Positions 1 to 13,151 of a stretch of DNA of 64,000 bases are shown one piece after another (the first letter of the stretch is position 1; every line of letters begins with the position of its first letter). The translations under genes were made by a program, and so were the position numbers. The stretch is from Sinomonas sp. ASV486 (lineage in GTDB: Bacteria > Actinomycetota > Actinomycetes > Actinomycetales > Micrococcaceae), in assembly GCF_030908215.1 (NCBI RefSeq), contig NZ_JAVFJK010000002.1, forward strand, positions 372,001 through 436,000, read 5' to 3'. The notes beneath the pieces were generated by a model. The model was not told the origin of the DNA. It saw nothing but the letters and a program-made list of their open reading frames with translations, and searched no databases.

Positions 1-556
1 CGGTGATGAACATGATCTGGCTCGCGTCCGCGAAGACGCCGCCGATGAGCGGTCCCACCACCGAGGAGACGCCGAACACGGCGAGGAAGAAGCCCTGGTA
101 CTTGGCGCGCTCGCGCGGGGCGAGGATGTCGCCCATGATCGCGAGAGGGAGGGACATGAGCGCGCCTGCGCCGATGCCCTGGAAGGCACGGAACCCGGCG
201 AGCATGATCATCGACGTCGAGAACGAGGAAAGGAACGAGCCGAGGATGAAGACGGCGAGGCCGAAGATGTACAGCGGACGGCGCCCGAAGATATCGGACA
301 GCTTGCCGTAGATCGGCGTGGTGATGGTCGAGGTGATGAGGTAGGCCGTGGTGACCCACGCCTGCTCGTCGAGGCCGTGGAGGTCGTCGCCGATCGTGCG
401 GATCGCGGTGCCGACCACGGTCTGGTCGAGGGAGGACAGGAACATGCCTGCCATGAGGGCGTAGATGACCAGCATGATCTGACGCTGGGTCATCACCTCG
501 CCCGACGGCGCGGGGGCCGCGTTACGCGCGGACCGGCCGGACGCTGCTTGAGACAT
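1..556 (-). CDS. MFS multidrug efflux transporter, DHA2/EmrB type (N-terminal part only)
   Basis: The gene runs off the left edge, so only about 185 N-terminal residues are visible. They show a short polar leader, then membrane segments. Between helices 2 and 3 lies the MFS loop GKLSDIFGRRPLY (motif A), and a later segment carries a motif-C-like VVGPLIGG. The first helix, with SSLDQTVVGTAIRTIGDDL, is characteristic of the 14-helix drug:H+ antiporter family. It should sit in the inner membrane and export drugs by proton antiport; the substrate cannot be read from sequence. The ATG at 554-556 was chosen because it begins a normal leader, although its ribosome binding site is weak. TTGCAG/CTGCAA repeats about 60 bp upstream look like an operator. 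Confidence 0.88.
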   Translation of the reverse strand, partial: MSQAASGRSARNAAPAPSGEVMTQRQIMLVIYALMAGMFLSSLDQTVVGTAIRTIGDDLHGLDEQAWVTTAYLITSTITTPIYGKLSDIFGRRPLYIFGLAVFILGSFLSSFSTSMIMLAGFRAFQGIGAGALMSLPLAIMGDILAPRERAKYQGFFLAVFGVSSVVGPLIGGVFADASQIMFIT

Positions 557-613
557 GAGGGGTCCGAATCTCTCAGAGGGGGTTCAGGGTGCACTTAGTT
601 CGCCGAAGCAACT

Positions 614-645
614 TTGCAGGCTCTGCAAGTTTACACACTCTGCAA
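614..645. promoter_or_regulatory. Candidate operator upstream of the MFS efflux gene (TTGCAG-GCT-CTGCAA plus a third CTGCAA)
   Basis: A perfect 6-bp inverted repeat TTGCAG-GCT-CTGCAA is followed 11 bp later by a third CTGCAA half-site. It lies just upstream of the efflux gene in a locally AT-richer stretch. TetR- and MarR-type repressors commonly control such pumps through sites like this. The regulator gene is not in the visible sequence between this site and 733; it may lie beyond the left edge. Confidence 0.45.
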
Positions 646-732
646 GATTTCGGGAACGGGCGGTCGTGTGACTTCTGCTGCCCTCCGTCGATCCGCTTCA
701 CTCGCAGCCGCGGGCCCCCTGCTGAGGACCTG

Positions 733-1404
733 TTATGAGGCTGAAACGCGTGCCGAGAGGTCCTGGACGCGTTCGGCGATCTGGCTGAACGCCGCCTCGA
801 ACGCCGCCGGTGTCCCCACGGCGACGGGGTCCGGGATGGACCAGTGGAGCCGGTCGGAGGCGGGAAGCTCTTCGTGCGCCCGGTCGCAGACTGCGATCAT
901 CAGGTCGCCCTGCCGGACGGTGCCAGCAAGCATTTCGGGGTGCGACCCAGTGAGGTCGAGCCCGTGCCGCGCCGCGACGTCCTGGGCGCCCAGCGCGATG
1001 CCGTCCGCCGGGTGGGTGCCTGCAGAGGCGGAGGGGACGGGACTGGCTTGCTTCCAGAGCGCCTGGGCAAGCTGACTGCGGGCGGAGTTGGCGTAGCAGA
1101 CGAAGAGGACGCGGGGCGCGTGGACCGTTGCGGCCGCGAGGAGCCCTGCCGTCCCGGTCCGCACGAGCCTGACGTAGGTGCGCCGGCGGTCCGCCTCCGA
1201 GCGGTGGCGGCTGACCAGGCCCGCTGCCTCGAGCGTGCGCAGGTGGTGCGAGACGAGGTTGGAGGCCATGCCGAGCTCGGCCTGCAGCTCGGCCGGGGAA
1301 CGGTCCCCGAGCGCCAGCAGGTCCACGATCCGCAGCCGCGCGGGCTCACCGAGGGCCGCGTGCACGGCAGCCCGGCGCGTCAAGGAGATTAGCTCAGTGT
1401 TCAT
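733..1404 (-). CDS. ArsR-family regulator fused to a low-molecular-weight-phosphatase-type arsenate reductase
   Basis: The 223-residue protein has two parts. Residues 1-85 form an ArsR-like winged helix (LGEPARLRIVDLL, then a recognition helix around SNLVSHHLRTLEAAGL). Residues 97-223 are a low-molecular-weight protein tyrosine phosphatase/arsenate reductase domain with the P-loop C103-YANSA-R109 and a downstream DP motif for the general acid. The HTH part lacks the CxC arsenite site, so the sensing residue may be in the reductase half. The ATG at 1404 is preferred to upstream in-frame starts because homology begins there and a perfect palindrome ends two bases before it, leaving no room for a normal leader. 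It diverges from the aquaporin-arsC operon and probably controls both promoters. Confidence 0.85.
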   Translation of the reverse strand: MNTELISLTRRAAVHAALGEPARLRIVDLLALGDRSPAELQAELGMASNLVSHHLRTLEAAGLVSRHRSEADRRRTYVRLVRTGTAGLLAAATVHAPRVLFVCYANSARSQLAQALWKQASPVPSASAGTHPADGIALGAQDVAARHGLDLTGSHPEMLAGTVRQGDLMIAVCDRAHEELPASDRLHWSIPDPVAVGTPAAFEAAFSQIAERVQDLSARVSAS

Positions 1405-1406
1405 TG

Positions 1407-1420
1407 AGTCAATATTGACT
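1407..1420. promoter_or_regulatory. Perfect 14-bp palindrome AGTCAATATTGACT, probable ArsR-type operator
   Basis: The palindrome sits in the divergent region between the ArsR-reductase fusion and the aquaporin operon, two bases from the fusion's ATG. AT-rich palindromes of this kind are typical ArsR/SmtB operators. Its position implies a very short or absent leader on the fusion transcript and direct autorepression. Confidence 0.6.
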
Positions 1421-1512
1421 GGAATGACGTCCGTGGCGCAAGCTGGTCGCGAGCACCGGACTCCGTGGGAGCCGTCGCGCCAACGTTCGGCAAGACAGAG
1501 AGATATGAAGAC

Positions 1513-1626
1513 ATGCATGTGATGGGCCTGATCCTGACCTCCCCGCTGGTGGATGCCGTCTGCGGCCCGGCGCGGCCGAGGCTGGCGCAGTTCGTCAGCA
1601 CGCACGACGGCGGGGCCGCCGCGTGA
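1513..1626 (+). CDS. Small ORF translationally coupled to the aquaporin gene (37 residues)
   Basis: An ATG at 1513 opens a 37-codon frame that ends in TGA at 1624-1626. Its stop overlaps the aquaporin GTG start as GTGA, the same arrangement seen between the real genes downstream. The product begins MHVMGLILTSPLVDAV and has no recognised domain. A GAGAG tract lies about 12 bases upstream. It could be a leader peptide that couples translation, a relic of a deleted gene, or chance. I do not recognise a family. Confidence 0.3.
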   Translation: MHVMGLILTSPLVDAVCGPARPRLAQFVSTHDGGAAA

Positions 1627-2321
1627 GCGCGCTGGCCCGCCGGGTGGGGGCGGAGCTGGTTGGGACAGCGTTCCTGGTGATGGCGGTGGTCGGCTCCGGG
1701 GTCATGGCCTCGCGGCTCTCGCCCAACGACACGGGCTTGGCGCTGCTGGAGAACAGCATCGCCACCGGGGCCGCCCTGGTGGCGCTGATCGTCGCGCTGC
1801 AGCCGGTCTCGGCGTCCTTCAACCCGGTCGTGACCATCGTCGAGCGCCTGCTAGGGGTCATCGATACCCGCTCGGCGGCGGCGCTGATCGCCGCGCAGTT
1901 CGCCGGGGGGCTCCTGGGCACGGTCGTGGCAAACCTCATGTTCGGCCTCGACGCCGTCACCCTCTCCGCCCATGAGCGCACGGGTCCCGGGCTGTGGCTC
2001 GGCGAGGTCGTCGCGACCGTTGGCCTGCTCCTGGTCGTCTTCGGCACCGTCCGGTCCGGCCGCGCCGACCGGGTGGCGTTCGCCGTGGGCGGGTACATCG
2101 CCGCGGCGTACTGGTTCACGAGCTCGACCAGCTTCGCCAACCCCGCCGTCACGATCGCCAGGACCATCACGGACACGTTCGCCGGCATCGCACCTGCCTC
2201 CGCACCGGGCTTCATCGTGGCCCAGCTGCTCGGCGGCGCCCTGGGGCTGCTGCTCGTCCGGTTCCTCTACCCCACCGTTGTCAGCGCCGCGTCCGCGGCC
2301 GAGAAGGAAGTCATCTCATGA
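1623..2321 (+). CDS. MIP-family aquaglyceroporin of the arsenic operon (AqpS-like)
   Basis: This 232-residue membrane protein has the two half-repeats of the major intrinsic protein family. The first pore loop carries NPV at 67-69 instead of NPA. The second carries a canonical NPA at 173-175 with the conserved arginine at 180. About six helices flank these loops. In Sinorhizobium the AqpS channel replaces the ArsB pump and lets arsenite produced by ArsC leave down its gradient. The same role is inferred here because no ArsB or Acr3 gene is visible in the island. The GTG start overlaps the preceding small ORF, and its stop overlaps the arsC start as ATGA, so the genes form one operon. Confidence 0.88.
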   Translation: MSALARRVGAELVGTAFLVMAVVGSGVMASRLSPNDTGLALLENSIATGAALVALIVALQPVSASFNPVVTIVERLLGVIDTRSAAALIAAQFAGGLLGTVVANLMFGLDAVTLSAHERTGPGLWLGEVVATVGLLLVVFGTVRSGRADRVAFAVGGYIAAAYWFTSSTSFANPAVTIARTITDTFAGIAPASAPGFIVAQLLGGALGLLLVRFLYPTVVSAASAAEKEVIS

Positions 2322-2740
2322 GTGAATCCGCCCAGAACAAGCCGTCTGTCCTTTTCGTCTGCGTCCACAACGCCGGCCGGTCCCAGATGGCCGCCGCTTA
2401 CCTCAACCACCTCTCCGGCGGTCAGGTCGAGGTCCGCTCGGCCGGGTCGGAGCCCGCCGATAGGGTCAACCCCGCCGCCGTGGAGGCGATGCTCGAGGAG
2501 GGCATCGACATCCGTGCCGAGACCCCCAAAATCCTCACCACCGAGGCAGTCAAGGACTCCGACGTCGTCATCACCATGGGCTGCGGAGACACCTGCCCCA
2601 TCTTCCCGGGCAAGCGGTACGAGGACTGGGAGCTCGAGGACCCCGCAGGCAAGGGAGTCGACTCCGTCCGCCCCATCCGTGACGACATCAAGTCCCGCGT
2701 CGAGGCCCTCATCGCCGAACTCCTGCCCGCGGATGCCTGA
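2318..2740 (+). CDS. arsC: Arsenate reductase, low-molecular-weight phosphatase fold
   Basis: The 140-residue cytoplasmic enzyme should reduce arsenate to arsenite. It has the P-loop C15-VHNAG-R21 and a CGDTCP segment with C89 and C93, matching the redox cysteines of thioredoxin- or mycothiol-linked ArsC enzymes. An EDP motif in the DWELEDPAGK region supplies the acid. Length is normal for the family. The ATG overlaps the aquaporin stop, so reduction and export are translationally linked. In actinobacteria mycothiol/mycoredoxin is the likely reductant, but the sequence alone does not decide between that and thioredoxin. Confidence 0.92.
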   Translation: MSESAQNKPSVLFVCVHNAGRSQMAAAYLNHLSGGQVEVRSAGSEPADRVNPAAVEAMLEEGIDIRAETPKILTTEAVKDSDVVITMGCGDTCPIFPGKRYEDWELEDPAGKGVDSVRPIRDDIKSRVEALIAELLPADA

Positions 2741-2755
2741 GACAAGGGAGCAGCC

Positions 2756-3427
2756 ATGGCACCCCAGCCCAGCATGCACACTGACCAGCGGGTGCTCGAG
2801 CGCATCAGCGCCGATCTCTCCGCCCGCTTCGCCGGGACCTTCTCCCCCGAGACGGTTGAGCGGTACGTGTTCGAGTCCTACACGGCACTGGCCCGCACCG
2901 CCCGGATCCACAGCTACCTCACCGCGCTGACCGAGCACTTCGCCAAGGACCGCCTCACTGCCCTGGCCCAGTCCACCGGCGCCGCGCCCAAGGACGTGCC
3001 CGAGGTCCTGTTCGTGTGCGTGCAGAACAGCGGCCGCTCCCAGCTCGCCGCCGCCTACCTCCGCCACACAGCAGGGACCTCAGTGCACGTCCGCACCGCG
3101 GGATCAATGCCGGCATCAGAGGTCAACCCGGCCGTCGCGGCCCTCGTCGTCGCCCGCGGCTGGGACCTGGCCGAGGACTTCCCCAAGCCGCTCACCGACG
3201 ACGTCGTCCGCGCCGCGGACTACGTCATCACCATGGGCTGCGGCGATTCCTGCCCCATTTACCCCGGCAAGCACTACCTCGACTGGGCCGTCGAGGACCC
3301 GGCCACGCACCCGGACCAGCTCGAGGAAATCGCTGCCCAGATCACCGCCAGCGTCGATGCCCTCCTCGCCGAGATCCGCACAGCCGCCGACCACCACGCC
3401 ACCGCCGCCGAAGGGACCCGCCCGTGA
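2756..3427 (+). CDS. arsC: Arsenate reductase with N-terminal three-helix domain
   Basis: Residues 1-80 form a helical domain (HTDQRVLERISADL, then ETVERYVFESY) often found ahead of actinobacterial phosphatase-type reductases. Residues 82-223 repeat the ArsC fold with P-loop C88-VQNSG-R94 and CGDSCP (C162, C166). It is a second, longer arsenate reductase rather than a copy of the upstream gene. The ribosome binding site AAGGGAG lies five bases before the ATG, 15 bases after the upstream stop. The N-terminal domain may bind a partner or oligomerise the enzyme; that is inference. Its stop overlaps a short downstream ORF. Confidence 0.9.
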   Translation: MAPQPSMHTDQRVLERISADLSARFAGTFSPETVERYVFESYTALARTARIHSYLTALTEHFAKDRLTALAQSTGAAPKDVPEVLFVCVQNSGRSQLAAAYLRHTAGTSVHVRTAGSMPASEVNPAVAALVVARGWDLAEDFPKPLTDDVVRAADYVITMGCGDSCPIYPGKHYLDWAVEDPATHPDQLEEIAAQITASVDALLAEIRTAADHHATAAEGTRP

Positions 3428-3495
3428 CCAAGCCCTCGCCGATCGGTTCCCCTGCACCCGGACTGCCCTGGTCCACGGCCCGGAGGCCGCGCTGA
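3424..3495 (+). CDS. Short overlapping ORF after the second arsC (23 residues), possible truncated gene start
   Basis: A GTG at 3424 overlaps the arsC stop as GTGA and reads 23 codons, beginning MTKPSPIGSPAPG. Related ars operons often place a flavin disulfide reductase here. This stub could be what remains of such a gene after a deletion, but it is too short to show homology. Treat it as a candidate relic. Confidence 0.22.
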   Translation: MTKPSPIGSPAPGLPWSTARRPR

Positions 3496-3538
3496 CCTGA
3501 GCCGGGACCAGGCCGCGGACGAAGCCGACCGGGTTGCC

Positions 3539-3573
3539 ATATTCATCAGTGAATGTGAATATCGACATATGTC
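3539..3573. promoter_or_regulatory. ArsR operators: ATATTCA-N10-TGAATAT and GACATATGTC spanning the arsR start codon
   Basis: Two dyads lie back to back in an AT-rich pocket. The first is the inverted repeat ATATTCA-N10-TGAATAT (3539-3562). The second is the perfect palindrome GACATATGTC (3564-3573), whose centre contains the arsR ATG. No Shine-Dalgarno is present, so the transcript is probably leaderless and binding of ArsR would block its own promoter and start. Confidence 0.6.
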
Positions 3574-3925
3574 TATGTCTCTGGAGCTGACGCCCCTCCA
3601 GGCGGTGGCGTGCTGCCCGCCTCTGTCCCGGGAGCCGATGGGCTCCCCCGAGGCCGAGCGGATCGCTCCGCTGCTGAAGGCGCTGGGGGATCCGGTGCGG
3701 CTGCGCCTGATGTCCTTGGTGGCCTCGCACGAGGGCGGGGAGGCGTGCGTGTGCGACCTCAATGAGGCGTTCGAGCTGTCCCAGCCCACGATCAGCAGGC
3801 ACCTGAAGATCCTCCACGACGCAGGCCTGCTCGAACGGGACAAGCGTGGCGTCTGGGTGTACTACCGGGCGCGTACCGGCGCGCTGGAGGACCTGGCCGC
3901 ACTGATCGGCGGATCCCCGAGATGA
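3569..3925 (+). CDS. arsR: ArsR arsenite-responsive repressor
   Basis: This 118-residue SmtB/ArsR winged-helix protein has the core ALGDPVRLRLMSLV and recognition helix QPTISRHLKILHDAGLL. Thiols occur as C15-C16 near the N-terminus and as C60-V-C62 in the ACVCDL helix. The C15/C16 pair matches the arrangement reported for Corynebacterium glutamicum ArsR, where they bind As(III) with a cysteine from the HTH region. It should repress the downstream Cys-rich peptide and ArsA genes and release on arsenite. The operator overlaps the start codon. The ATG at 3569 is preferred to the one two codons later because the family N-terminus begins there. Confidence 0.92.
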   Translation: MSMSLELTPLQAVACCPPLSREPMGSPEAERIAPLLKALGDPVRLRLMSLVASHEGGEACVCDLNEAFELSQPTISRHLKILHDAGLLERDKRGVWVYYRARTGALEDLAALIGGSPR

Positions 3926-3972
3926 GTGTCCCGGCGCGAGTGGCTCCGCTGGTCGGGACCGGTCCCCCCTGA
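3922..3972 (+). CDS. 16-codon ORF overlapping the arsR stop (ATGA), doubtful
   Basis: An ATG at 3922 overlaps the arsR stop and reads 16 codons, starting MSVPARVAPLVG, to a TGA. It has the same overlap geometry as real gene pairs in this island. It may be a truncated start of a gene lost between arsR and the Cys-rich peptide, or chance. No homology can be judged at this length. Confidence 0.15.
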   Translation: MSVPARVAPLVGTGPP

Positions 3973-4026
3973 CGCCCGCGGCCCACCCGCACGCCACCGC
4001 CCGCTAGCCCCGAGAGGAGGTGCACC

Positions 4027-4092
4027 ATGGATACGTGCTGCTGCAACAACTCCTGCCAGAACGGATGCTGCGAGGACCAGGACTGCTGCTGA
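4027..4092 (+). CDS. 21-residue cysteine-rich peptide preceding arsA, putative arsenite/metal-binding peptide
   Basis: A perfect AGGAGG lies six bases before an ATG that reads 21 residues ending CCEDQDCC. Eight residues are cysteines (positions 4, 5, 6, 10, 14, 15, 20, 21), in vicinal pairs and a triplet, with acidic and amide residues between. The arsA ribosome binding site GAGAAGGA follows at its stop codon, so the two are co-translated. Vicinal cysteines bind As(III) tightly. By position it occupies the place where ArsD, the chaperone that delivers As(III) to ArsA, is found in other operons. A metallothionein-like or chaperone role is inferred. I know of no named family for it. Confidence 0.7.
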   Translation: MDTCCCNNSCQNGCCEDQDCC

Positions 4093-4103
4093 GAAGGACG
4101 GCG

Positions 4104-5870
4104 ATGATGCGATTCCTCCACGACCCGCCCCGGTTCCTCTTCTTCACCGGCAAGGGAGGCGTCGGCAAGACCTCCGTCGCCTGCGCGGCCGCCGTCGAGC
4201 TGGCCGAAGCCGGCAAGCGCGTGCTGCTCGTCAGCACCGACCCGGCTTCCAACATCGGCCAGGTCTTCGGGCTCTCCATCGGCAATACCATGACGCCGAT
4301 CCCCACCGTCCACGGCCTGTCGGCACTGGAGATCGACCCGGAGCAGGCGGCCGACGCCTACCGGGAGCGCATCGTAGCCCCCGTCCGCGGGCTCCTGCCC
4401 GAGGCCGAGATCGCGGGCATCGTCGAGGGCCTCTCCGGATCCTGCACCACAGAGGTTGCCGCGTTCGACGAGTTCACGGGCCTCCTCACCGACGACGCGG
4501 CCTACGGGGGCTACGACCACGTCATCTTCGACACCGCCCCCACTGGCCACACCATCCGTCTGCTGCAGCTGCCCGGCTCTTGGACGGACTTCCTCGCCGC
4601 CGGTGGCCAGGCCTCGTGCCTCGGTCCGATGTCCGGCCTGGACAAGCATCGCGAAACCTACGCCAGCGCCGTCAGTGCACTCACCGACCCGGAGCGGACC
4701 CGGCTGGTGCTGGTGGCACGCCCCCATGCCTCGGCTCTGGCCGAGACGGAACGGACTCTGGCCGAACTCGCCGGGATCGGCATGGCAGACGCCTACCTCG
4801 TGGTCAACGGCGTCATGCCAGCGGCCGCCGGCGACGAGCCGATCGCCGCGGCGCTGCGGGAACGCGAGGCCACAGCCCTGTCGGCCATCCCCGCCGCGAT
4901 TGCCCGCCTGCCGCGGGACGTCGTAGAGCTGAAGGCCGGGAACATCATGGGCCCCGAGGCGCTGCGTACGTTCTTCACCCCCGCACCGCCGGTGGACACG
5001 ACGGCCGGCGAGGGCGGGTACGTCCCGCTCCCGGACGCGCCCCTGACCGCGCTCGTGGACGAGATCGAGGCCGACGGCCATGGACTCGTCATGTGCATGG
5101 GCAAGGGCGGCGTCGGGAAGACGACGGTCGCCGCCGCGGTCGCGATCGCCCTCGCCGGGCGCGGGCATGAGGTCCTGCTCACGACGACGGACCCCGCCGC
5201 ACATCTCGACATGACCCTCAGCGGGAGCGCCGACCGGCTCGCCGTCGCCCGGATCGATCCTGCGGCTGCCCTCGAGCAGTACCAGAGCCGCGTCATGGAG
5301 ACCAAGGGCCGCAGCCTCGACGACGCCGGGCGGGCGGCCCTGGCCGAGGACCTCAAGTCCCCGTGCACCGCAGAGGTCGCGGTGTTCCAGCAGTTCTCGC
5401 GCGCCGTGCACGACGCCCGGCGGAAGTTCGTCGTCATGGACACCGCCCCCACGGGGCATACGCTGCTGCTCCTGGATGCCGCCGGCTCCTACCACCGCGA
5501 GGTCACCCGGCAGATGGGCGAAGGCAGCGTCGGGTACGTTACCCCGCTCATGCGGCTGCAGGACCCTACCCAGACGAAGGTCATCCTCGTCACCCTCGCC
5601 GAGACCACCCCCGTGCTCGAGGCGACCGCGCTCCAGCAGGACCTTCAACGGGCCGGAATCCACCCGTGGGCCTGGGTGGTCAACAACTCGATCGCCGCCG
5701 CGCGTCCCGAGTCGGCCTTCCTCCGCGCCCGCGCGGCCAGCGAAAGGGACCAGATCGAACGCGTGCAGGACCTTGCGGACAGGCTGGCGATCGTACCCCT
5801 CCTGGCCCAGGAGCCGGTGGGTATCGGGCGGCTGGGAGCCCTCACCGAGCCCATCGCCCAGCACGCCTGA
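4104..5870 (+). CDS. arsA: ArsA, arsenite-stimulated ATPase with two nucleotide-binding halves
   Basis: The 588-residue protein has two homologous halves. Each has a signature P-loop (FTGKGGVGKTS at about 14-24 and MGKGGVGKTT at about 332-341) and a DTAPTGHT switch (143-150 and 446-453). The three cysteines that coordinate As(III) in E. coli ArsA (C113, C172, C422) are present here as C114, C172 and C421, so the allosteric metalloid site is intact. ArsA normally powers the ArsB pump, which is missing from this window. It follows the Cys-rich peptide by 11 bases. The first of two adjacent ATGs was taken; the second, at 4107, is equally possible. Confidence 0.93.
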   Translation: MMRFLHDPPRFLFFTGKGGVGKTSVACAAAVELAEAGKRVLLVSTDPASNIGQVFGLSIGNTMTPIPTVHGLSALEIDPEQAADAYRERIVAPVRGLLPEAEIAGIVEGLSGSCTTEVAAFDEFTGLLTDDAAYGGYDHVIFDTAPTGHTIRLLQLPGSWTDFLAAGGQASCLGPMSGLDKHRETYASAVSALTDPERTRLVLVARPHASALAETERTLAELAGIGMADAYLVVNGVMPAAAGDEPIAAALREREATALSAIPAAIARLPRDVVELKAGNIMGPEALRTFFTPAPPVDTTAGEGGYVPLPDAPLTALVDEIEADGHGLVMCMGKGGVGKTTVAAAVAIALAGRGHEVLLTTTDPAAHLDMTLSGSADRLAVARIDPAAALEQYQSRVMETKGRSLDDAGRAALAEDLKSPCTAEVAVFQQFSRAVHDARRKFVVMDTAPTGHTLLLLDAAGSYHREVTRQMGEGSVGYVTPLMRLQDPTQTKVILVTLAETTPVLEATALQQDLQRAGIHPWAWVVNNSIAAARPESAFLRARAASERDQIERVQDLADRLAIVPLLAQEPVGIGRLGALTEPIAQHA

Positions 5871-5937
5871 TTCCGCTGGGGGCTCGGCCTTGATGCGGCG
5901 GCCCAGTTCCGCCTCAGCCGTGCGTGAGGACAGTGCG

Positions 5938-6417
5938 ATGAACCTGAACGTGTTCGCCGTGGCAGGCCTTGCGCGTCATCCCTGCCGCGGGTTGAATGCC
6001 ACCATGGGCGATCGCGACGAATTCCTGCGCTGGTTCGACACCGCCTGGCGGGATGCCGAGGTTGCGCTCCACAACGGTGATGCTGGGCCGAGGTTCGAGA
6101 CGTGGTCTGAGCGGGCACCGGTGACGCTCTTCGGCGCGTGGCGCAACGCCGAGGACCCGGCAGGCGCGCGCGAGGTCTTCCGAGAGCTGGCGCAGGCCTT
6201 CTCCCAAGCCACGTCCAGCGAAGTCGAGCTCATCGCGGCGGATGCGAGCGGTGACCTGGCATACACCGTCCAACGCGAGATCACGTCGACGATCGTCAAC
6301 GGCGAGCCTCGTCAATACGTCCTGCGGGTAACGCAGGTCTACCGCCGCGAGGACGGTAATTGGAAGGTCGTCCACAGACACGGCGACGAAGAACTGGGAG
6401 CCGACAAGGGGCCATGA
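5938..6417 (+). CDS. SnoaL-like/DUF4440 nuclear-transport-factor-2 fold protein
   Basis: The C-terminal 135 residues show the cone-shaped NTF2/SnoaL pattern: a helix DEFLRWFDTAWRDAEVALHNGD, then strands, ending in VTQVYRREDGNWKVVHRHGDE. Such proteins act as small-molecule isomerases or as unknown stress proteins, and no catalytic role can be assigned. GAGGA seven bases before the ATG at 5938 supports that start and gives 159 residues. The ATG at 6004 would give a more usual 137 residues but lacks a clear ribosome binding site. It follows arsA on the same strand, with no sign that it belongs to arsenic resistance. Confidence 0.72.
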   Translation: MNLNVFAVAGLARHPCRGLNATMGDRDEFLRWFDTAWRDAEVALHNGDAGPRFETWSERAPVTLFGAWRNAEDPAGAREVFRELAQAFSQATSSEVELIAADASGDLAYTVQREITSTIVNGEPRQYVLRVTQVYRREDGNWKVVHRHGDEELGADKGP

Positions 6418-6522
6418 CCCCCCGCCCGTCCTCTGGCACACCACCGGCTATCGCCGGGCGCACCGGCCCACTGGCCCGGATCAGCCGCGACCCGAAGCAG
6501 CAATATAGCTCGGGGCGTCCGG

Positions 6523-7230
6523 TCAGGCGGGCGGGTTGCTGCGCTTCGGGGCCGGCCGTGCGATCAGGATGATCGCCGTTGTCAGGATCCACAGGTCCTG
6601 CAGGCCAGCGAGTCCGGCGGCGAAAGCCTGAGCGAACGGGATGAATACCTCGAGCAGGCCGACGAGGAGGAACGCAGCGCCGAGAGCCAGCGCCACCCAG
6701 CCCAGCCATGTCGGGAGAACGCGGCTTCGCAGCAGGATCACGCCCAGCGGCAGGTAGACCGCCGGCGCCGGCACCAGCGGAAAGACCTGGATGAATCGTG
6801 ACATCAGGTCGTAGCCGGCCCGGGCACTCTCCGGGACGCCGGCCGTGGAGGCACTGACCCATGTGAGGGTGAACACGCCTTCCATCAGCACCAAGGCGAC
6901 CAACACCGCCGAGCCGAGCAGGACCGTGTAGGCGGCGAGGGTGCCGTTCGATGCGGAGATGAACAGCAGCCCGATGAAGAAGACGACGCACAGCGTGGCA
7001 CCGGTGGCCTGCAGCCAGGTGCCGAATTCGACCAACTGCTCGTACTGGGCCCCAACCGCCAGGACCTCGCTGGTGACCGGCCGGGCCGAGTACACAAGCG
7101 CCTCCATGCGGGGGAAGAGCGCGGGAACGCCGAAGTAGAACCCAAAGAACAGGGCGCCGACGAGTCCGACGAAGCCCACCGGCCGGGATCGAACCTCCAG
7201 ATGCCCGGCATTCAAACGCATCCCGCTCAC
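6523..7230 (-). CDS. Polytopic membrane protein of unknown function
   Basis: About 235 residues contain six to seven hydrophobic segments, including FVGLVGALFFGFYFGVPALF, ATLCVVFFIGLLFI and LGWVALALGAAFLLVGLLEV, separated by short loops. The C-terminus is basic (RPAPKRSNPPA). I recognise no family with confidence; the layout resembles DUF4386-type proteins such as the one at 42831. The start is uncertain. GTG at 7230 sits 12 bases after GGAGG and was chosen; ATG at 7221 or GTG at 7242 are alternatives. Confidence 0.6.
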   Translation of the reverse strand: MSGMRLNAGHLEVRSRPVGFVGLVGALFFGFYFGVPALFPRMEALVYSARPVTSEVLAVGAQYEQLVEFGTWLQATGATLCVVFFIGLLFISASNGTLAAYTVLLGSAVLVALVLMEGVFTLTWVSASTAGVPESARAGYDLMSRFIQVFPLVPAPAVYLPLGVILLRSRVLPTWLGWVALALGAAFLLVGLLEVFIPFAQAFAAGLAGLQDLWILTTAIILIARPAPKRSNPPA

Positions 7231-7374
7231 TGTGCCGCGCACCCTCCCTGCTGCATCCTACGCGGCACCCGGATTCACGGGGTTGCCGTCGCTGGAGCCA
7301 ATGCTGGCGCAGCACAGTTGCATGTGCAAGAGGCTCGTACCTCTTGGGGGAGCGGGTCGGTACTGCGCCGCGGG

Positions 7375-7415
7375 GTGTCACGAGACGGTCAACGTGCCGT
7401 GTCAGGAGACTGTCA
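7375..7415. repeat. Two 17-bp direct repeats GTGTCAnGAGACnGTCA, candidate operator
   Basis: The copies at 7375-7391 and 7399-7415 differ at two positions and are spaced 24 bp start to start. Each is itself a loose dyad (GTGTCAG/CTGTCAC). They lie 55 bp before the small gene at 7470, where a regulator site would be expected. No regulator is encoded nearby. Confidence 0.4.
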
Positions 7416-7469
7416 CGCCCTTCAAGGGTCCCCGGCGCGGGCGTAGGTCCATCATGGAGGTAGGACGCC

Positions 7470-7733
7470 ATGAGGGCCTCCGATCCCAAGGCGGCAGCCA
7501 TGAACCCCCGAACACCCCGCAGCAGCCGCACGGCATTGCTCTCGCGCTCAAGCGCCGAATCGCCGCCGCCCCCGGCGCGCACCCGACACGCCTCGCTGCC
7601 GGACACATGGGAGCCTCCGCACTTCTCTTGGCACGGCCGGATCCTGGCAGATCTGATGGAATCCGGTCTCGACGAGGACCGCGCCCGCGCAGAGGCGGCA
7701 CGTCTGGCTGCCGGGGACACCTGGAGCGGATGA
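7470..7733 (+). CDS. Small hypothetical protein (87 residues)
   Basis: The ORF begins with ATG nine bases after GGAGG, a good initiation site. The N-terminal half is Ser/Pro/Arg-rich and probably disordered. The C-terminal half, FSWHGRILADLMESGLDEDRARAEAARLAAGDTW, is an amphipathic helical pair. No family is recognised. Direct repeats upstream suggest regulated expression. An internal ATG at 7500 is possible. Confidence 0.5.
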   Translation: MRASDPKAAAMNPRTPRSSRTALLSRSSAESPPPPARTRHASLPDTWEPPHFSWHGRILADLMESGLDEDRARAEAARLAAGDTWSG

Positions 7734-7944
7734 GCCGACTCCGCGGCAGCAGTAGCTGAGGCCCGGGCGACGTGGGCGGGGAGTTCCCGGATCGAGCCCC
7801 CCAAGTGAGGCCGTGAAGGTCGGACAGGCTGGGTTTCCTGCTGCCATCGATGCCATCCATGGGGGACAGCTCGAAGGAGGGCTGGCGCTTGCGCGGGTGG
7901 TGGCACGGGCCCTGGTGCCCCGGTCGCGTCCTCTATCAGGTTCT

Positions 7945-8226
7945 CTAGACGCTGTTCCCTTCTTGGCCGGCTGCGGCAGCGTCCTGTCCGGCCACGGCAC
8001 GGAATCCGACACCATGCTGGTTCAGCTCGGCAAGGAGGTCGTCCTCGCGCTCGGCCAGTGTCTCGGTGGGATCCCCGGCAGCGGCCGTGTTCCTGATGGC
8101 GTTCTCGGTCTGGGCGAGCTCAATGATCAGCCCCCTTGTACTGCCCTGCACGTCCTCCGCCGGCGCACTCTGTCCGGTTGCGGGCGGCTGTTCCCCGCTC
8201 TGCTCTTTACCCTGCTCTATGGCCAT
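7945..8226 (-). CDS. Small acidic Ala/Gln-rich hypothetical protein (93 residues)
   Basis: The 93-residue frame is divergent from the decarboxylase gene at 8401. Residues 33-70 are predicted helical and acidic (LIIELAQTENAIRN, then LAEREDDLLAELNQ). The flanks are Gln/Ala/Gly-rich. Codon choice resembles neighbouring genes, but the upstream Shine-Dalgarno is poor. No domain is recognised. Confidence 0.4.
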   Translation of the reverse strand: MAIEQGKEQSGEQPPATGQSAPAEDVQGSTRGLIIELAQTENAIRNTAAAGDPTETLAEREDDLLAELNQHGVGFRAVAGQDAAAAGQEGNSV

Positions 8227-8400
8227 GCCACCAAGGTAGACGACGGTGCGGTGTCCGGTCAGCCCCCAGTCCCGGCATCGAGAGCACGCCGGCCCTAAGC
8301 CGGTCAGTGCACACCCTAGGACGCTCGATGTCGCAGGCACGGAACGTCTTCGGGGCCCGGGGGCTCCCGCGCGGGGTGGGCCTGCTGGTAGAACGGGACG

Positions 8401-9861
8401 ATGGACCAGAACGAGGCACCCCTCGTAGATGCATTGGCCGAGTACCACCGCTTGGACCGCTACGGCTTCACCCCACCGGGCCACCGTCAAGGCCACGGGG
8501 CCGACCCACGGGTCCGTGCCGTGCTGGGCGAGCAGAGGTTCCGATCGGATGTCCTGGCTTCGGCAGGACTGGACAGTCGCTCCTCGTCGGGGGGCTACCT
8601 GAAGAAGGCCGAACAGCTTATGGCGGAGGCCGTGGGGGCGGAACAGGCCTTCTTCTCCACGTGCGGCAGCTCCCTCTCGGTCAAGGCGGCGGTCCTTGCC
8701 GTCGCTGCAGGAAAGGGCGACCTCCTGGTCAGCCGGGACGCGCACAAGTCGATCGTCGCCGGGCTGGTCTTCTCCGGCATCCAGCCACGCTGGATCCAGC
8801 CCCGCTGGGATCCGGAACTGCACCTCGCGCACCCGCCCTCCCCGGCCGACGTCGAGCAGATGTGGAACCGCTACCCGGACGCGGCTGGCTGCCTGATCGT
8901 CAGTCCGACCCCGTACGGGACCTGCGCAGACATCGCCGCAATCGCCGCCGTCTGCCACGACCGGGGCAAGCCGCTGATCGTCGACGAGGCCTGGGGCGCG
9001 CATCTGCCCTTCCACGATGACCTGCCGACGTGGGCGATGGACGCCGGCGCGGACATCTGCGTTGTCAGCGTCCACAAGATGGGCGCCGGCTTCGAGCAGG
9101 GCTCGGTCTACCACCTCCAGGGAGACCTGGTCGACCCGGCCCACCTGTCCGCCTGCGCGGACCTGCTGATGACCACCAGCCCCAATTCGATCCTGTACTC
9201 GGCGATCGACGGCTGGCGGCGCCAGATGGTCCAGCACGGGGCGGAGCTGCTGGGAAATGCCCTGGCGCTGTCCCGCCGGCTGCGCACGGATATCGAGGCA
9301 TTGCCCGGATTCCATGTGCTCGAGGACGAGCTGCTGGCTGTGGAATCTTCCTACGACCTGGACCGTATGCAGGTCCTGATAGACCTCTCCGGGCTCGGAA
9401 TCAGCGGATACCAGGCCGCGGACTGGCTGCGGGATACCCACAGGATCGACATGGGCCTCAGCGACCATCGACGCATCATGGCCACGCTCTCGATGGCCGA
9501 CGACGAAGCCACGGCCACCAGGCTGACGGACGCCCTCAGAGCTCTGGCCGACGCCGCGCCGACCATGACGCCGCCGCCACCAGTCGCGCTGCCCGCTCCA
9601 CACGAACTGGAACTGGAAACCGCCGTTCTTCCAAGGGACGCCTTCTTCGGCCCCACCGAAGACGTCCCCACGGCCGAAGCCGTCGGACGGGTGGCCGCCG
9701 AGCAGATCACCCCCTACCCGCCCGGCATCCCCGCGATTGTCCCCGGAGAGGTGATCAACGCGGCGGTCATCGACTACCTCGAGTCAGGGCTCCGGGCCGG
9801 CATGGTTCTCCCCGACCCCGCCGACCCGGCCCTCACAACGATCCGCGTCCTCCAGAAATAG
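8401..9861 (+). CDS. Orn/Lys/Arg decarboxylase-family PLP enzyme
   Basis: The 486-residue protein has the fold-type-I core of the short basic-amino-acid decarboxylases (SpeA/Cad family of Firmicutes). Residues 14-30 read YHRLDRYGFTPPGHRQG, typical of the family start. The cofactor site shows SxHK with the Schiff-base lysine K226 in VSVHKMGAGF and the pyridine-binding aspartate D195 in DEAWGAH. A C-terminal domain ends with the conserved ITPYPPGIPAIVPGE segment. It should decarboxylate arginine, lysine or ornithine to a polyamine precursor; the substrate is not decided by these motifs. It stands alone, without other polyamine genes. Confidence 0.88.
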   Translation: MDQNEAPLVDALAEYHRLDRYGFTPPGHRQGHGADPRVRAVLGEQRFRSDVLASAGLDSRSSSGGYLKKAEQLMAEAVGAEQAFFSTCGSSLSVKAAVLAVAAGKGDLLVSRDAHKSIVAGLVFSGIQPRWIQPRWDPELHLAHPPSPADVEQMWNRYPDAAGCLIVSPTPYGTCADIAAIAAVCHDRGKPLIVDEAWGAHLPFHDDLPTWAMDAGADICVVSVHKMGAGFEQGSVYHLQGDLVDPAHLSACADLLMTTSPNSILYSAIDGWRRQMVQHGAELLGNALALSRRLRTDIEALPGFHVLEDELLAVESSYDLDRMQVLIDLSGLGISGYQAADWLRDTHRIDMGLSDHRRIMATLSMADDEATATRLTDALRALADAAPTMTPPPPVALPAPHELELETAVLPRDAFFGPTEDVPTAEAVGRVAAEQITPYPPGIPAIVPGEVINAAVIDYLESGLRAGMVLPDPADPALTTIRVLQK

Positions 9862-9946
9862 CCCGCAACCACACGGGGAGCAGCTGCAAGGAGCAGTGCC
9901 CGCCGGGAACCTGCCCGAGTGGCCAGCGCTCGGTGGAGGTGAGGGG

Positions 9947-11290
9947 TCAGGAGACGCGCGAAAGGCCGCCTGCGGCGTTTATTAGGGGCGCGGGCAGCCG
10001 TAGCCCGTAGTGCTCGCGCAGCGTTGTTCCCGCGTACTCCTCACGGAAGAGGCCGCGCGCTTGTAGCAGCGGCACGACATGGTCCACGAACTCGTCAAGC
10101 CCCGCGGGCAGGGCCGCCGCCATGACGTTGAAGCCATCGGCGGCCCCGTCCCGGAACCAGGCCTCAAGAGTGTCCGCGACCTGTTCCGGTGTGCCGGCAA
10201 CGGTCCGGTGCCCTCGGCCGCCGCCGAGGCGACCGATGAGCTGGCGCACGGTGAGCCGCTCACGGCGTGCCAGGTCCACGACGAGCGTGTAGCGGCTCTT
10301 CGCACCCTCGATCTCGTCCTCGTCGGGGAGGTCCGCTGGAAGCTCCCTGTCCAGGGGGAGGTCCTCCGGGGCGAGGCGCAGGGTCCTGGCGAGCTCGTCC
10401 CTCGCGAATTCGGGGCGGATGAGCTCATCCAGCTCCCGCTCACGCCGGAGCGCCTCCTCCGCGGTTGCGCCGAGGATGGGCACGATGCCCGGAAGAATCT
10501 TGATTCCGTCGGGGTCGCGCCCAGCGGCGGCCGTGCGCGCCTTGAGATCGCTGTAGAACGCCTGGGCTTCCTCGAGGGTCTGCTGGGCAGTGAACACGGC
10601 CTCGGCGTGGTTGGCGGCAAGGTCCTTGCCGTCCTCGGAGGAGCCGGCCTGCACGATGACTGGGCGCCCCTGCGGGGAGCGGGGGATGTCGAGCGCACCC
10701 CACACCGAGAAGTGCCGACCGGAATGCTCGACGGCGCGCACTCGCCGGGCATCGGCCCAGATCCCCGCCTCCTTGTCGGCGACGATCGCGTCGTCCTCCC
10801 ACGAGTCCCACAGCTTGGAGGCCACCTCGAGGAACTCGGCCGCGCGCTCGTACCGGCCGCGGTGGAGCGGCTGGTCATCGAGCCCGAAGTTCCGCGCGGC
10901 GTCGGCCCCTGCGGTGGTCACGACGTTCCAGCCGGCCCGGCCGCCCGAGAGGTGGTCGATCGAGGCGAAACGGCGGGCGAGGTTGTACGGGGAGTTGTAG
11001 CTCGTCGAGGCGGTCGCGATGAGTCCGATCCGCTCTGTCACGGCCGCGAGGGCCGCGAGCAGCACGGTAGGCTCCACGGCACCGGGCGGCCGCCGCTCCA
11101 CCGAACCCCACAGCACGGGCGAATCGGCGAAGAACACCGAGTCGAACTTCCCCCGCTCCGCGGTCTGGGCCAGACGGGAGAAGTGCGCGAGGCTTGTGCC
11201 CGCGAACGGGTAACTCTCGGGGAGCCGCCACGACGCCTCGTGGTGACCCGTGCTCATGAGGAACGCGTTCAGGTGCAGCTGCTCACCCAT
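9947..11290 (-). CDS. LLM-class FMN-dependent monooxygenase (NtaA/SnaA/DszA family), organosulfur operon
   Basis: The 447-residue protein is a luciferase-like two-component flavin monooxygenase. It starts LHLNAFLMSTGHHEASWR, contains RFASIDHLSGGRAGWNVVTT and NFGLDDQPLHRGRYERAAEF, and ends with a GTPEQVADTLEAW segment. These are hallmarks of the DszA/NtaA/SnaA subgroup. It uses FMNH2 from a separate reductase (gene at 15135) to oxidise a sulfur- or nitrogen-containing substrate. Being last in an operon with an SsuABC/TauABC-like importer and a TauD-like dioxygenase points to sulfur scavenging from a sulfone, sulfonate or thioether; the exact substrate is open. Confidence 0.88.
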   Translation of the reverse strand: MGEQLHLNAFLMSTGHHEASWRLPESYPFAGTSLAHFSRLAQTAERGKFDSVFFADSPVLWGSVERRPPGAVEPTVLLAALAAVTERIGLIATASTSYNSPYNLARRFASIDHLSGGRAGWNVVTTAGADAARNFGLDDQPLHRGRYERAAEFLEVASKLWDSWEDDAIVADKEAGIWADARRVRAVEHSGRHFSVWGALDIPRSPQGRPVIVQAGSSEDGKDLAANHAEAVFTAQQTLEEAQAFYSDLKARTAAAGRDPDGIKILPGIVPILGATAEEALRRERELDELIRPEFARDELARTLRLAPEDLPLDRELPADLPDEDEIEGAKSRYTLVVDLARRERLTVRQLIGRLGGGRGHRTVAGTPEQVADTLEAWFRDGAADGFNVMAAALPAGLDEFVDHVVPLLQARGLFREEYAGTTLREHYGLRLPAPLINAAGGLSRVS

Positions 11291-11292
11291 GC

Positions 11293-12228
11293 TCAGGCCA
11301 CCGCCCCGGTGGAGACGACCTCCGAGTAGTGCGAGGAGTCGCCCTCGATCGACTGGCTGGTCTTCCCGTCGATCCCGGCCGGGATGTCCCCGGCGATCGT
11401 TACCCGGTTGAGCTTGCGCGGCTGGCCATCGTAGTTCGAGGGCGCGTAGTGCTGGGTGATGCGGTTGTCGAAGAGGACGAGCTGGTTCGGTTCCCAGTTC
11501 ACGCGGACCACGTTCTCCGGCCGGGTGATGTAGGCCTGCAGCAGGCGCAGGATGTCGCGCGACTCGGTATTGGAGAGACCGACGATCCGCAGACGCTGGG
11601 CGAAGCCGCCGATGAAGAGGCCCCGTTCCCGGGTGAGGGGATGGACGCGGACCACCGGATGGGCCGTCTGGTACTTGACGCGCGTGAAGACCTTGCGGCG
11701 CTCCTCGGCGGTGGCGTGCTCGAGGTTCTTCGGCACGGCGTAGTCGTAGTCGTTCGTGTGGATGGCCCAGAGCGTGTCGGCGAAGTTCCGCAGCTCCGCC
11801 GGCAAGTCCTCGTAGGCGGCCGCCGACGAGGCGATGAGCGTCTCGCCGCCGTAGGACGGCACAGTGATGCTGCGCAGCGTGGTGGCCTGCGGCGGGTTGA
11901 TCACGAACGTGACGTCCGTGTGCCAGGTGTTCGCCGACCCGTCCTCGCTGTCCACGGGGAGCACGTTCTCGGCTCCGTCCACGGACGCCACGGTCGGGTG
12001 GGCCTTGGTGAGCGGGCCGAAGCGCGATGCGAAGCGGACCTGGTCCTCGTCGGTGCGGATGTTGGCTTCGCGGAACACGAGTGCCTTGTGCTCGTTGAGG
12101 GCCCCCCGGATCTCGCGGACGGTCTCGTCCGAGAGGTTGTGGCTGAGGTCGAGACCGCGGATCTCGGCGCCGATGCGCGCGCCGAGCTTGGTGAAGGCGA
12201 GGCGGGTGGAGATGGCTGTGCTGGTCAT
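11293..12228 (-). CDS. TauD/TfdA-family Fe(II)/2-oxoglutarate dioxygenase
   Basis: The 311-residue enzyme contains the iron ligands HTD in SANTWHTDVTF and the distal histidine in RITQHYAPSNY, followed by an arginine for 2-oxoglutarate binding. LFIGGFAQRLRIVGLSNTES is typical of alkylsulfatase/taurine dioxygenases such as AtsK and TauD. It should hydroxylate the carbon next to a sulfonate or sulfate, releasing sulfite or sulfate. The start has AAGGA upstream of the ATG. Two bases separate its stop from the start of the monooxygenase gene, and the importer genes precede it in the same operon. Confidence 0.88.
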   Translation of the reverse strand: MTSTAISTRLAFTKLGARIGAEIRGLDLSHNLSDETVREIRGALNEHKALVFREANIRTDEDQVRFASRFGPLTKAHPTVASVDGAENVLPVDSEDGSANTWHTDVTFVINPPQATTLRSITVPSYGGETLIASSAAAYEDLPAELRNFADTLWAIHTNDYDYAVPKNLEHATAEERRKVFTRVKYQTAHPVVRVHPLTRERGLFIGGFAQRLRIVGLSNTESRDILRLLQAYITRPENVVRVNWEPNQLVLFDNRITQHYAPSNYDGQPRKLNRVTIAGDIPAGIDGKTSQSIEGDSSHYSEVVSTGAVA

Positions 12229-12260
12229 GGCAGGTCCTTTCGAGAGTGGGAAGAGCAGGG

Positions 12261-13151
12261 TCAGGCGTTGGCCTCGACGCGCCAGCGCGAGAAGCGGCGC
12301 TCGAGCGCGACGAGGAGCGTGTTCACGGCGAGGCCGAGGAGCGAGACAGTGAGGATGCCCGCGTACATGTCCGGGATGAGGAAGCTCGACTGCGCGTTGA
12401 CGATCAGGTACCCGAGCCCGGCCTTGGCCCCGACCATCTCCGCCGCGATGAGCACGAGGATCGATGCCGTGCCGGCCATGCGGATGCCTGTGAAGATCGT
12501 TGGCACCGCGGAGGGCAGGATGACCTTGAGGAACAGCGAGAGGTGCGAGAGGCCAAGCGAGCGGGCGGCCCGCACAAGCAGCGGGTCCACGGTCCGAACC
12601 CCGGCCACGGTGTTGAGCAGCACTGGGAAGAAGGCGGCGTACGCGACGATCGTGATCTTCGATTCCTCGCCGATCCCGAGCAAGAGAGTGACCACCGGAA
12701 GGAGCGCGAGGGCTGCGGTATTGCGGAACACTTCTAGCAGCGGCGTGATGAAGGTGCTCACCGGGCGGTACCAGGCGATGAGCAGCCCAGCCGTGATCCC
12801 GAGGACGACGGCGACGCCGAATCCCGCGACCGAGCGCGTCAGGCTCGCGACGAGGTGCGTCCCGAGCGCCCCGTTGGCGAGGAGCTTCCACGCCGCGGCG
12901 AGGACTTCGTGCAGGGGTGGGAGGAAGACGCGGGTCGAGGGCGGGGCGAACCACAGCGGCCCCACTTCCCATAGGAGCAGGAACACGACGATCGCCACGG
13001 ACTTCCAGATACCGGAAACGGCGACGGCGACGGCCCGCCTGAGCGTTGGGGCAGCCACTGGGCGGTTGGCAGGCGGCGTGTCCGGGGCAGTGCTGGGTTC
13101 GGGCGCGGCGGGGGCACTGGCCGTCAGGGCTGGCGACGTTAGGGCTGACAT
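12261..13151 (-). CDS. ABC transporter permease, SsuC/TauC type
   Basis: The 296-residue inner-membrane protein has a Pro/Ala-rich N-terminal tail of about 40 residues, then six helices. The EAA-type coupling loop is ARSLGLSHLSLFLKVILPSAVPTIFTGIR. It belongs to the BPD_transp_1 permeases of aliphatic sulfonate, taurine and nitrate importers. Its ATG overlaps the stop of the ATPase gene by one base (ATGA), so the two are translationally coupled. It forms the pore of the importer whose lipoprotein and ATPase are encoded immediately upstream. Confidence 0.9.
   Translation of the reverse strand: MSALTSPALTASAPAAPEPSTAPDTPPANRPVAAPTLRRAVAVAVSGIWKSVAIVVFLLLWEVGPLWFAPPSTRVFLPPLHEVLAAAWKLLANGALGTHLVASLTRSVAGFGVAVVLGITAGLLIAWYRPVSTFITPLLEVFRNTAALALLPVVTLLLGIGEESKITIVAYAAFFPVLLNTVAGVRTVDPLLVRAARSLGLSHLSLFLKVILPSAVPTIFTGIRMAGTASILVLIAAEMVGAKAGLGYLIVNAQSSFLIPDMYAGILTVSLLGLAVNTLLVALERRFSRWRVEANA

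Follow-up and report, generated by a model that had tools for sequence, protein, structure and literature searches.

A cysteine-rich 21-codon ORF upstream of arsA and a family of putative arsenite-binding micro-peptides in ars clusters of Arthrobacter-like bacteria

Directly upstream of arsA in the window, by which we mean the whole 64-kb stretch of Sinomonas sp. ASV486 DNA analysed here, lies an ORF of 21 codons, eight of which specify cysteine. Besides the window species, 19 loci carry similar tiny ORFs encoding 19 distinct peptides, all of them in ars-type clusters. With modest confidence we lean towards the view that these are real ribosomal micro-peptides, that they form a small family serving as an ars accessory in Arthrobacter-like bacteria, and that they most likely act as intracellular arsenite-binding thiol peptides; we infer translation, As(III) binding and buffering.

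Results

A cysteine-rich micro-ORF between arsR and arsA

The eight cysteines of the 21-residue window peptide are arranged as one CCC, one single C and two CC pairs, a CC-x4-C spacing is visible by eye, and aromatic residues are absent. A Shine-Dalgarno sequence precedes the start codon with a spacer of 6 nt, and 11 nt separate the stop codon from the first ATG of arsA; a second arsA ATG follows at 4107. The first-pass annotation, which had claimed a 21-residue, eight-cysteine peptide with a perfect Shine-Dalgarno sequence directly 5' of arsA, proved correct.

This cysteine-rich micro-ORF lies above chance expectation. ORFs of 15-35 aa with at least six cysteines and at least 30% cysteine number exactly one in the 64-kb window, none in 80 arsA loci of relatives (879,112 bases, both strands) and none in 40 versions of the window simulated by a first-order Markov model. 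When the rule was relaxed (five cysteines, 22%, SD-like sequence), the 80 arsA loci yielded a single ORF, situated in locus L037 and itself a member of the family described below. The identical peptide is encoded in a second genome of the same species (G011), with two synonymous differences (GAT/GAC and ACG/ACT). The reading frame of arsA stays open across the peptide and, read from a GTG at 4020, gives 616 aa, so that an annotation could begin arsA on top of the peptide; with a query beginning at 4107, the 80 arsA matches have their first aligned residue between query positions 1 and 3. Judged by its Shine-Dalgarno sequence and by the similar tiny peptides in ars clusters of related bacteria, the window ORF is probably translated and made on the ribosome, as had been proposed.

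The features of the surrounding cluster are collected in Table 1. The palindrome where arsR begins may serve as the ArsR operator; arsR, peptide and arsA would then form one operon, with the peptide gene in second place. Co-expression of the peptide with arsA is probable, and translation of arsA is possibly coupled to that of the peptide. The pTC2 gene matching the divergent ArsR fusion is annotated as 'ArsR family/phosphatase family protein'. A MIP channel gene is present in the window arsA cluster, and no match to ACR3 was obtained within the first 14 kb (window 1-14000). A tblastn search of the window with 44 ArsD proteins yielded nothing convincing.

Table 1. Coordinates of the micro-ORF and of neighbouring features in the window.
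Feature	Position	Strand	Evidence and remarks
ArsR fused to phosphatase-like domain	733..1605	-	divergent from the cluster; 57% tblastn match in pTC2
MIP/aquaporin-family channel	1623..2321	+	PF00230
arsC, arsenate reductase	2318..2740	+	frame inside 1994-2740 ORF; tblastn 2342-2722 to L122 ArsC
ArsC-like low-molecular-weight phosphatase with N-terminal three-helix domain	2756..3427	+	LMWPc, Phosphatase-like_N, NF046112
Palindrome ATCGACATATGTCTAT at arsR start	3561..3576		candidate ArsR operator (putative role)
arsR, ArsR/SmtB regulator, 5' of peptide	3569..3925	+	NF033788 and HTH_5 above cut-off
Shine-Dalgarno AGGAGG	4015..4020	+	sequence; 6 nt 5' of peptide ATG
21-aa peptide ORF MDTCCCNNSCQNGCCEDQDCC	4027..4092	+	ATG 4027, stop 4090-4092; putative divergent family member by residue order; same peptide in G011
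arsA, arsenite pump-driving ATPase	4104..5870	+	TIGR04291, 793 bits (cut-off 650)

Similar peptides in ars clusters of related bacteria

The L037 ORF, used as query, led to a 73%-identical peptide in genome G259, and DNA searches from the latter led to plasmid copies in Paenarthrobacter aurescens TC1 and Arthrobacter strains. A profile of six peptides, the window peptide included (A3), was searched against 395 family-level genomes at E up to 0.5. Twenty genomes matched, with a member at the match in 13, two of them from the window species; the remaining seven were dropped because no member stood at the match, and one of these, G170, has a member elsewhere. The E value of 7.3e-5 for the window peptide comes from this model, which contains the window peptide. 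Reading upstream of the flavoprotein gene that commonly neighbours the peptide added one more plasmid copy and two more genome copies.

Single sequences reached less far. The window peptide matched five of 295 family-level genomes at E 1; two belong to the window species, and the other three loci (L008-L010) turned out on reading not to contain members. In L010 (G181:C31) a frame ending at 1545 is ArsR-like and carries a C-terminal CCNESVEKGCC tail that resembles the peptides in style. The L037 peptide matched 30 of 295 genomes at E 1; reading of 30 matched loci identified one member, L091, and no peptide of this kind in the 29 others. Neither tblastn with the window peptide, where the low-complexity filter may be the cause, nor blastn with window positions 4000-4120 gave a match in the plasmids. 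Model A4 matched one of 396 genomes in the order search and one of 396 in the phylum search, and model A5 four of 189 in the order search; none of these matches is a member. Since A4, although built with the window peptide, failed to report the window genome at E 0.05, and A5 missed G013, these order and phylum searches are weak negatives. Five distant loci with the flavoprotein (Cellulosimicrobium, Dietzia, Clavibacter, Rhodococcus and Streptomyces) showed no peptide of this kind; among them, L154 has one cysteine-rich frame without a Shine-Dalgarno sequence. Two Streptomyces plasmid matches were set aside, H134 because no ars genes are listed around it and H114 because its record, unannotated at that position, has no frame resembling the peptide.

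The 19 members are 12-31 aa long, with 4-10 cysteines and 2-8 Asp plus Glu, and conform to a pattern M(D/T)TGCC-x2-4-GCC-(D/E)n-x-DCC; purine-rich, SD-like runs precede 17 of them and also the members of L173 and L177. Examples are MDTGCCTDTGCCDEDDLDCC, MTTGCCENGCCDDDQDCC, MSTGCCDDECCEDGQDCC, MDTHCCTDAICTDTSQDCCDDDLDCC and MDPGCCTDTGCCTDTGCCDDNCCDDGQDCC. Most are rich in Asp/Glu, basic and aromatic residues are nearly absent, and there is little hydrophobic material. CC forms the C-terminus in 19/19 and DCC in 17/19; CC-x3/4-C is found in 17/19 and CC-x4-C in 16/19, a spacing that is likely to arise by chance in so cysteine-dense a peptide. Where records with the peptide bear a name, it is Arthrobacter or Paenarthrobacter, of the family Micrococcaceae, the Paenarthrobacter aurescens TC1 plasmid included. 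L150 belongs to the window's own genus; its peptide (MTTGCCENGCCDDDQDCC) stands behind arsR-MIP-arsC and has the run GAGAGGAGGTGC in common with the window peptide. One plasmid copy (L123) is cut to MDTGCCTDTGCC. At L137 (G148:C27:4504-4533), METGCCGDSSSPMPWADA has a family-like start and lacks the second half, and is possibly a broken copy.

For the 12 short members in model A5, pooled pN/pS was 0.41 over all codons and 0.52 without cysteine codons, values from non-independent pairs for which no significance was computed. All 12 keep the Asp that precedes the final CC, D and E replace one another at acidic positions, and gaps comprise whole codons. The pN/pS without cysteine codons, the invariant Asp, the D/E exchange and the whole-codon gaps argue moderately for selection acting on the peptide beyond the cysteine codons alone.

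Neither Pfam up to E 10 (where HMMER filters drop weak matches) nor NCBIfam up to E 0.01 matched the window peptide or three relatives; PHROGs up to E 1 matched neither the window peptide nor two relatives, PDB up to E 10 did not match the window peptide, and Rfam returned one match far below the gathering score. Titles and abstract openings in the open-licence literature, among the matches listed, contained no description of such a peptide. In the five plasmid records, taken from a collection that describes its gene table as incomplete, no listed gene corresponds to the peptide: those of L122, L123, L124 and L153 have nothing listed at its position, and in the TC1 record the start of a 'putative Secreted protein' overlaps it in another frame. 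Being about 20 codons long, the peptide is easily skipped by gene callers.

Relation of the window peptide to the family

We take the window peptide to be a divergent member of this family, on the strength of its residue order compared with shuffles and of the shared ars context; convergence is the alternative, as the homology rests on a short, cysteine-biased sequence together with context. The window peptide is led by a Shine-Dalgarno sequence, ends in CC with a further CC upstream, contains Asp/Glu, lies in an ars cluster and, at 21 aa, is within the 12-31 aa of the family, in agreement with the definition of the family used here. Scored with model A5, from which it had been left out, it was equalled or exceeded by 6 of 20,000 shuffles of its own letters; with a wider model the count was 40 of 20,000 by default and 19 of 20,000 with null2 off. 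A C-terminal rule, written after the family had been viewed, is satisfied by the window peptide, by 15/19 members and by 143 of 200,000 shuffles. The C-terminal ends read GCC-EDQ-DCC in the window, GCC-DDDQ-DCC in L150 and CC-EDGQ-DCC in L177. Searches with one sequence gave no link between the window peptide and other members, and a genome search with A5 left G000, G011 and G259, the window genome among them, unreported even at E 10. That search was insensitive, since it also missed G013, whose peptide is in the model, but it lends membership no support.

Gene neighbourhood of the family

The gene directly upstream of the peptide is trxB in 13/19 loci, arsC in 5/19 and a MIP/aquaporin gene in one (L177, where trxB lies further along). 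Downstream, an FAD-dependent oxidoreductase (the flavoprotein) follows in 17/19. A position before arsA, here between arsR and arsA, is found in the window alone among the 20 loci. In the five annotated plasmid clusters the neighbours are genes for arsenate reductase, thioredoxin reductase, the flavoprotein and ArsR; the thinnest ars context is that of L144, with arsR, trxB, peptide and flavoprotein. At L150 the peptide gene is last in its cluster and is followed by a 14-pair stem, the next plausible ORF being on the opposite strand. It is also last at L151, where a stretch like the flavoprotein leader comes after it, which suggests a recent loss of the flavoprotein gene there.

Twelve genomes of the Arthrobacter-like genus g9 had no member recognised at first; 11 of them carry the flavoprotein and two proved to be peptide-bearing, while in 9 of the 11 no peptide was seen on the coding strand of the stretch examined. 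Given this patchy presence among flavoprotein-bearing genomes, the peptide gene counts as accessory within ars clusters. It is also dispensable, as the patchy family and the congener G005, which has no peptide next to an 84%-identical ArsA, indicate.

Two further observations concern these clusters. The flavoprotein scores 59.8 bits against an NCBI ArsO cut-off of 425; at L122:6166-7548 and in relatives it has a cysteine-containing C-terminal tail, VCSADAGTSCDVP...GGCCAAP, and may represent an ars enzyme that is as yet uncharacterised. A palindrome some 65 bases long, CCCAACTAGGTAGCAGCA...TGCTACCTAGTTGGG with variants, recurs between ars genes at L143, L144, L145, L151 (3' of the peptide) and L169, and resembles a REP-type or mobile palindromic element.

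arsA loci of relatives

The arsA comparison set consists of the best 80 of 227 relatives, fetched from the genome collection. An ArsD match ends at most 400 nt upstream of arsA in 63 of these 80 loci, which bears out the earlier statement that the peptide occupies the usual place of ArsD. A window-like peptide upstream of arsA, for which the first-pass annotation had suggested a search, was absent from all 80 in whole-locus scans for at least five cysteines, which peptides with fewer would escape, and none was found before arsA when the 17 loci without an adjacent ArsD were read by eye. Conservation in relatives was found in one sense and not in the other: related cysteine peptides exist at 19 further loci, none of them directly before arsA. 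In G005, arsC directly precedes arsA, with neither ArsD nor peptide between. L037, conversely, has a full-length ArsD gene next to arsA as well as the peptide, which lies in a neighbouring gene run on the same strand.

Apparent arsD remnants stand upstream of arsA (5001) in L050, L045 and L036. The one in L050 (about 4895-4990) is a 19-codon ORF, MPANRIYESALCSDTTSCC, apparently an ArsD gene that has lost its central part; L045 and L036 retain something resembling an ArsD start. Near a Rhodococcus arsA, a cysteine-containing micro-ORF led by a Shine-Dalgarno sequence, MNVLTNLQAWWNCQVMMATGTCGTCMTNMPGCC, was noticed on the minus strand (L077:6891).

Discussion

Vicinal thiols bind As(III). The vicinal cysteine pairs of the peptide, often in a CC-x4-C arrangement, would hold As(III) that is released by arsenate reductase or enters the cell, and the peptide would act as a buffer, much as metallothioneins and phytochelatins do, until the As(III) leaves by the exporter or channel of the cluster. 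A thiol buffer near arsenate reductase fits the neighbouring genes, and an enzyme or folded chaperone is implausible for some 20 residues with almost no basic or aromatic and little hydrophobic material. The window peptide may additionally serve ArsA, a role for which the relatives give no support. Bacterial metallothioneins (SmtA/BmtA, MymT) are short and cysteine-dense, with almost no aromatics, and the window peptide resembles them in its small size, its 8/21 cysteines and its lack of aromatics. It differs in being less than half as long and rich in Asp/Glu, and it has no Pfam match; its metal binding is putative. Phytochelatins are likewise short, with repeated cysteines and acidic residues, and are made from glutathione by a synthase. 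The peptide shares with them its shortness, its repeated Cys and acidic residues and a plausible capacity to chelate As(III); unlike them, it is encoded for the ribosome and needs no synthase acting on glutathione.

The main alternative, which we consider unlikely, is that the ORF is a cysteine-codon leader. Ribosomes would slow down at its cysteine codons when charged tRNA-Cys or thiols are scarce, a shortage that arsenite might bring about, and the next gene would be expressed differently as a result. According to a passage of PMC9094748 that cites Canestrari 2020, mycobacteria have polycysteine short ORFs that serve as cysteine-responsive attenuators, and part of PMC4633059 contains a related proposal on cysteine-rich short ORFs regulating mycobacterial genes. 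The present ORFs are comparable in that each is tiny, rich in cysteine codons and, in the actinobacterial window, placed before an operon gene; a same-strand gene follows the ORF in the window and in 17/19 other loci. A stem of at least nine pairs occurs within 110 nt downstream of the ORF in 18/19 other loci, several of these stems being unrelated in sequence; the stem of L145 has six pairs by the same rule, and a bulged palindrome is nonetheless visible there. The inverted repeats are of the GCCTGCCGG type in most loci, a long palindrome in L143-L145 and L151, and of other kinds in L150 and L177. Since ten pairs also form in 47 of 300 shuffled 110-mers, only the longest stems are individually striking. 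A hairpin inside an ars operon has a precedent in the Bacillus CDB3 ars1 operon, where one between arsC and arsD is a read-through terminator, as a section of PMC4562236 states.

Several features speak against such a leader. The L150 peptide gene is the last of its ars cluster, with nothing downstream on its strand to regulate. In the window, 11 nt before arsA leave too little room for a hairpin, and shuffled sequences fold at least as well as the leader (z +1.49 and +0.32), which appears unstructured. Unlike the leaderless, 5'-terminal ORF expected of such an attenuator, the ORF here is led by a Shine-Dalgarno sequence and stands behind a same-strand gene in 20/20 loci; it follows ars genes or closes the cluster. 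Acidic residues are also kept, and the non-cysteine residues are partly retained, as the pN/pS without cysteine codons indicates.

A redox or thiol-transfer peptide, which would assist ArsC and thioredoxin reductase in arsenate reduction as a minimal redoxin-like partner and would not store arsenite, seems improbable to us. It would account for the frequent position directly behind trxB or arsC, and the CC pairs could form vicinal disulphides. The window peptide, however, has no CxxC of the redoxin type, few residues are conserved besides cysteine and the acidic ones, the window copy stands after arsR and before arsA, and the L177 copy stands after the MIP gene.

We attach a similarly low probability to the role proposed by the first-pass annotation, a dedicated As(III) chaperone of ArsA that replaces ArsD in the window species. 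The 11-nt distance to arsA and the lack of a convincing ArsD match within the window agree with it. Yet the arrangement is confined to one of 20 loci, none of the 80 other arsA loci showed the peptide there, and in G005 neither ArsD nor the peptide immediately precedes arsA. The peptide is hardly an ArsA-specific substitute for ArsD, since the 19 related peptides lie elsewhere than before arsA and L037 has a full ArsD too; the ArsA-tied part of the earlier reading was accordingly not sustained.

The likeness to ArsD comprises the CC-x4-C thiol spacing, further vicinal CC pairs, the ars cluster and, for the window peptide, the place before arsA. ArsD needs Cys12, Cys13 and Cys18 to work as a chaperone (Lin, Yang and Rosen 2007, as cited in the relevant part of PMC4562236). 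With about 120-130 aa and its CC-x4-C site at the N-terminus, ArsD nevertheless stands apart from the window peptide, which has 21 residues, is too short for a folded ArsD and has no significant match to 44 ArsDs; the related peptides are usually not next to arsA, and one coexists with an ArsD cluster in L037. That the ORF is an arsD relic left by internal deletion of the gene usually found before arsA is very improbable and, as the main reading, mostly refuted: ArsD does precede arsA in most of the 80 relatives, many ArsD tails end in CC...CC and L050 does have an apparent relic of this kind, but the best row overlapping 3926-4103 in the tblastn search of the 44 ArsDs against the window has E 0.44 and covers 3884-3991, stopping before the peptide, the relatives lie outside arsA neighbourhoods, one of them beside an intact ArsD, and the family model (null2 off) gives 12.9 bits to an ArsD tail and 10.7 to an ArsD N-terminal piece as against 39.1 to the window peptide.

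The arsenite-binding thiol peptide that we favour belongs to a kind already known, that of cysteine-rich putative metal-binding peptides. A wider reading is put forward tentatively: some actinobacteria might possess an encoded counterpart of phytochelatin, Cys/Asp peptides of mostly 17-31 residues whose genes are accessory to ars clusters on plasmids and other contigs. These would chelate the As(III) produced by arsenate reductase before its export and could, as in the window, be recruited beside arsA in place of ArsD. Few bacterial gene sets have been studied as thoroughly as the ars operons, and a recurrent gene of about 20 codons would be a new component of them; its product would rank among the smallest metal-binding gene products proposed and shows how length thresholds can hide genes. 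The family raises the question of whether bacteria buffer arsenite with ribosomal thiol peptides, as plants do with phytochelatins.
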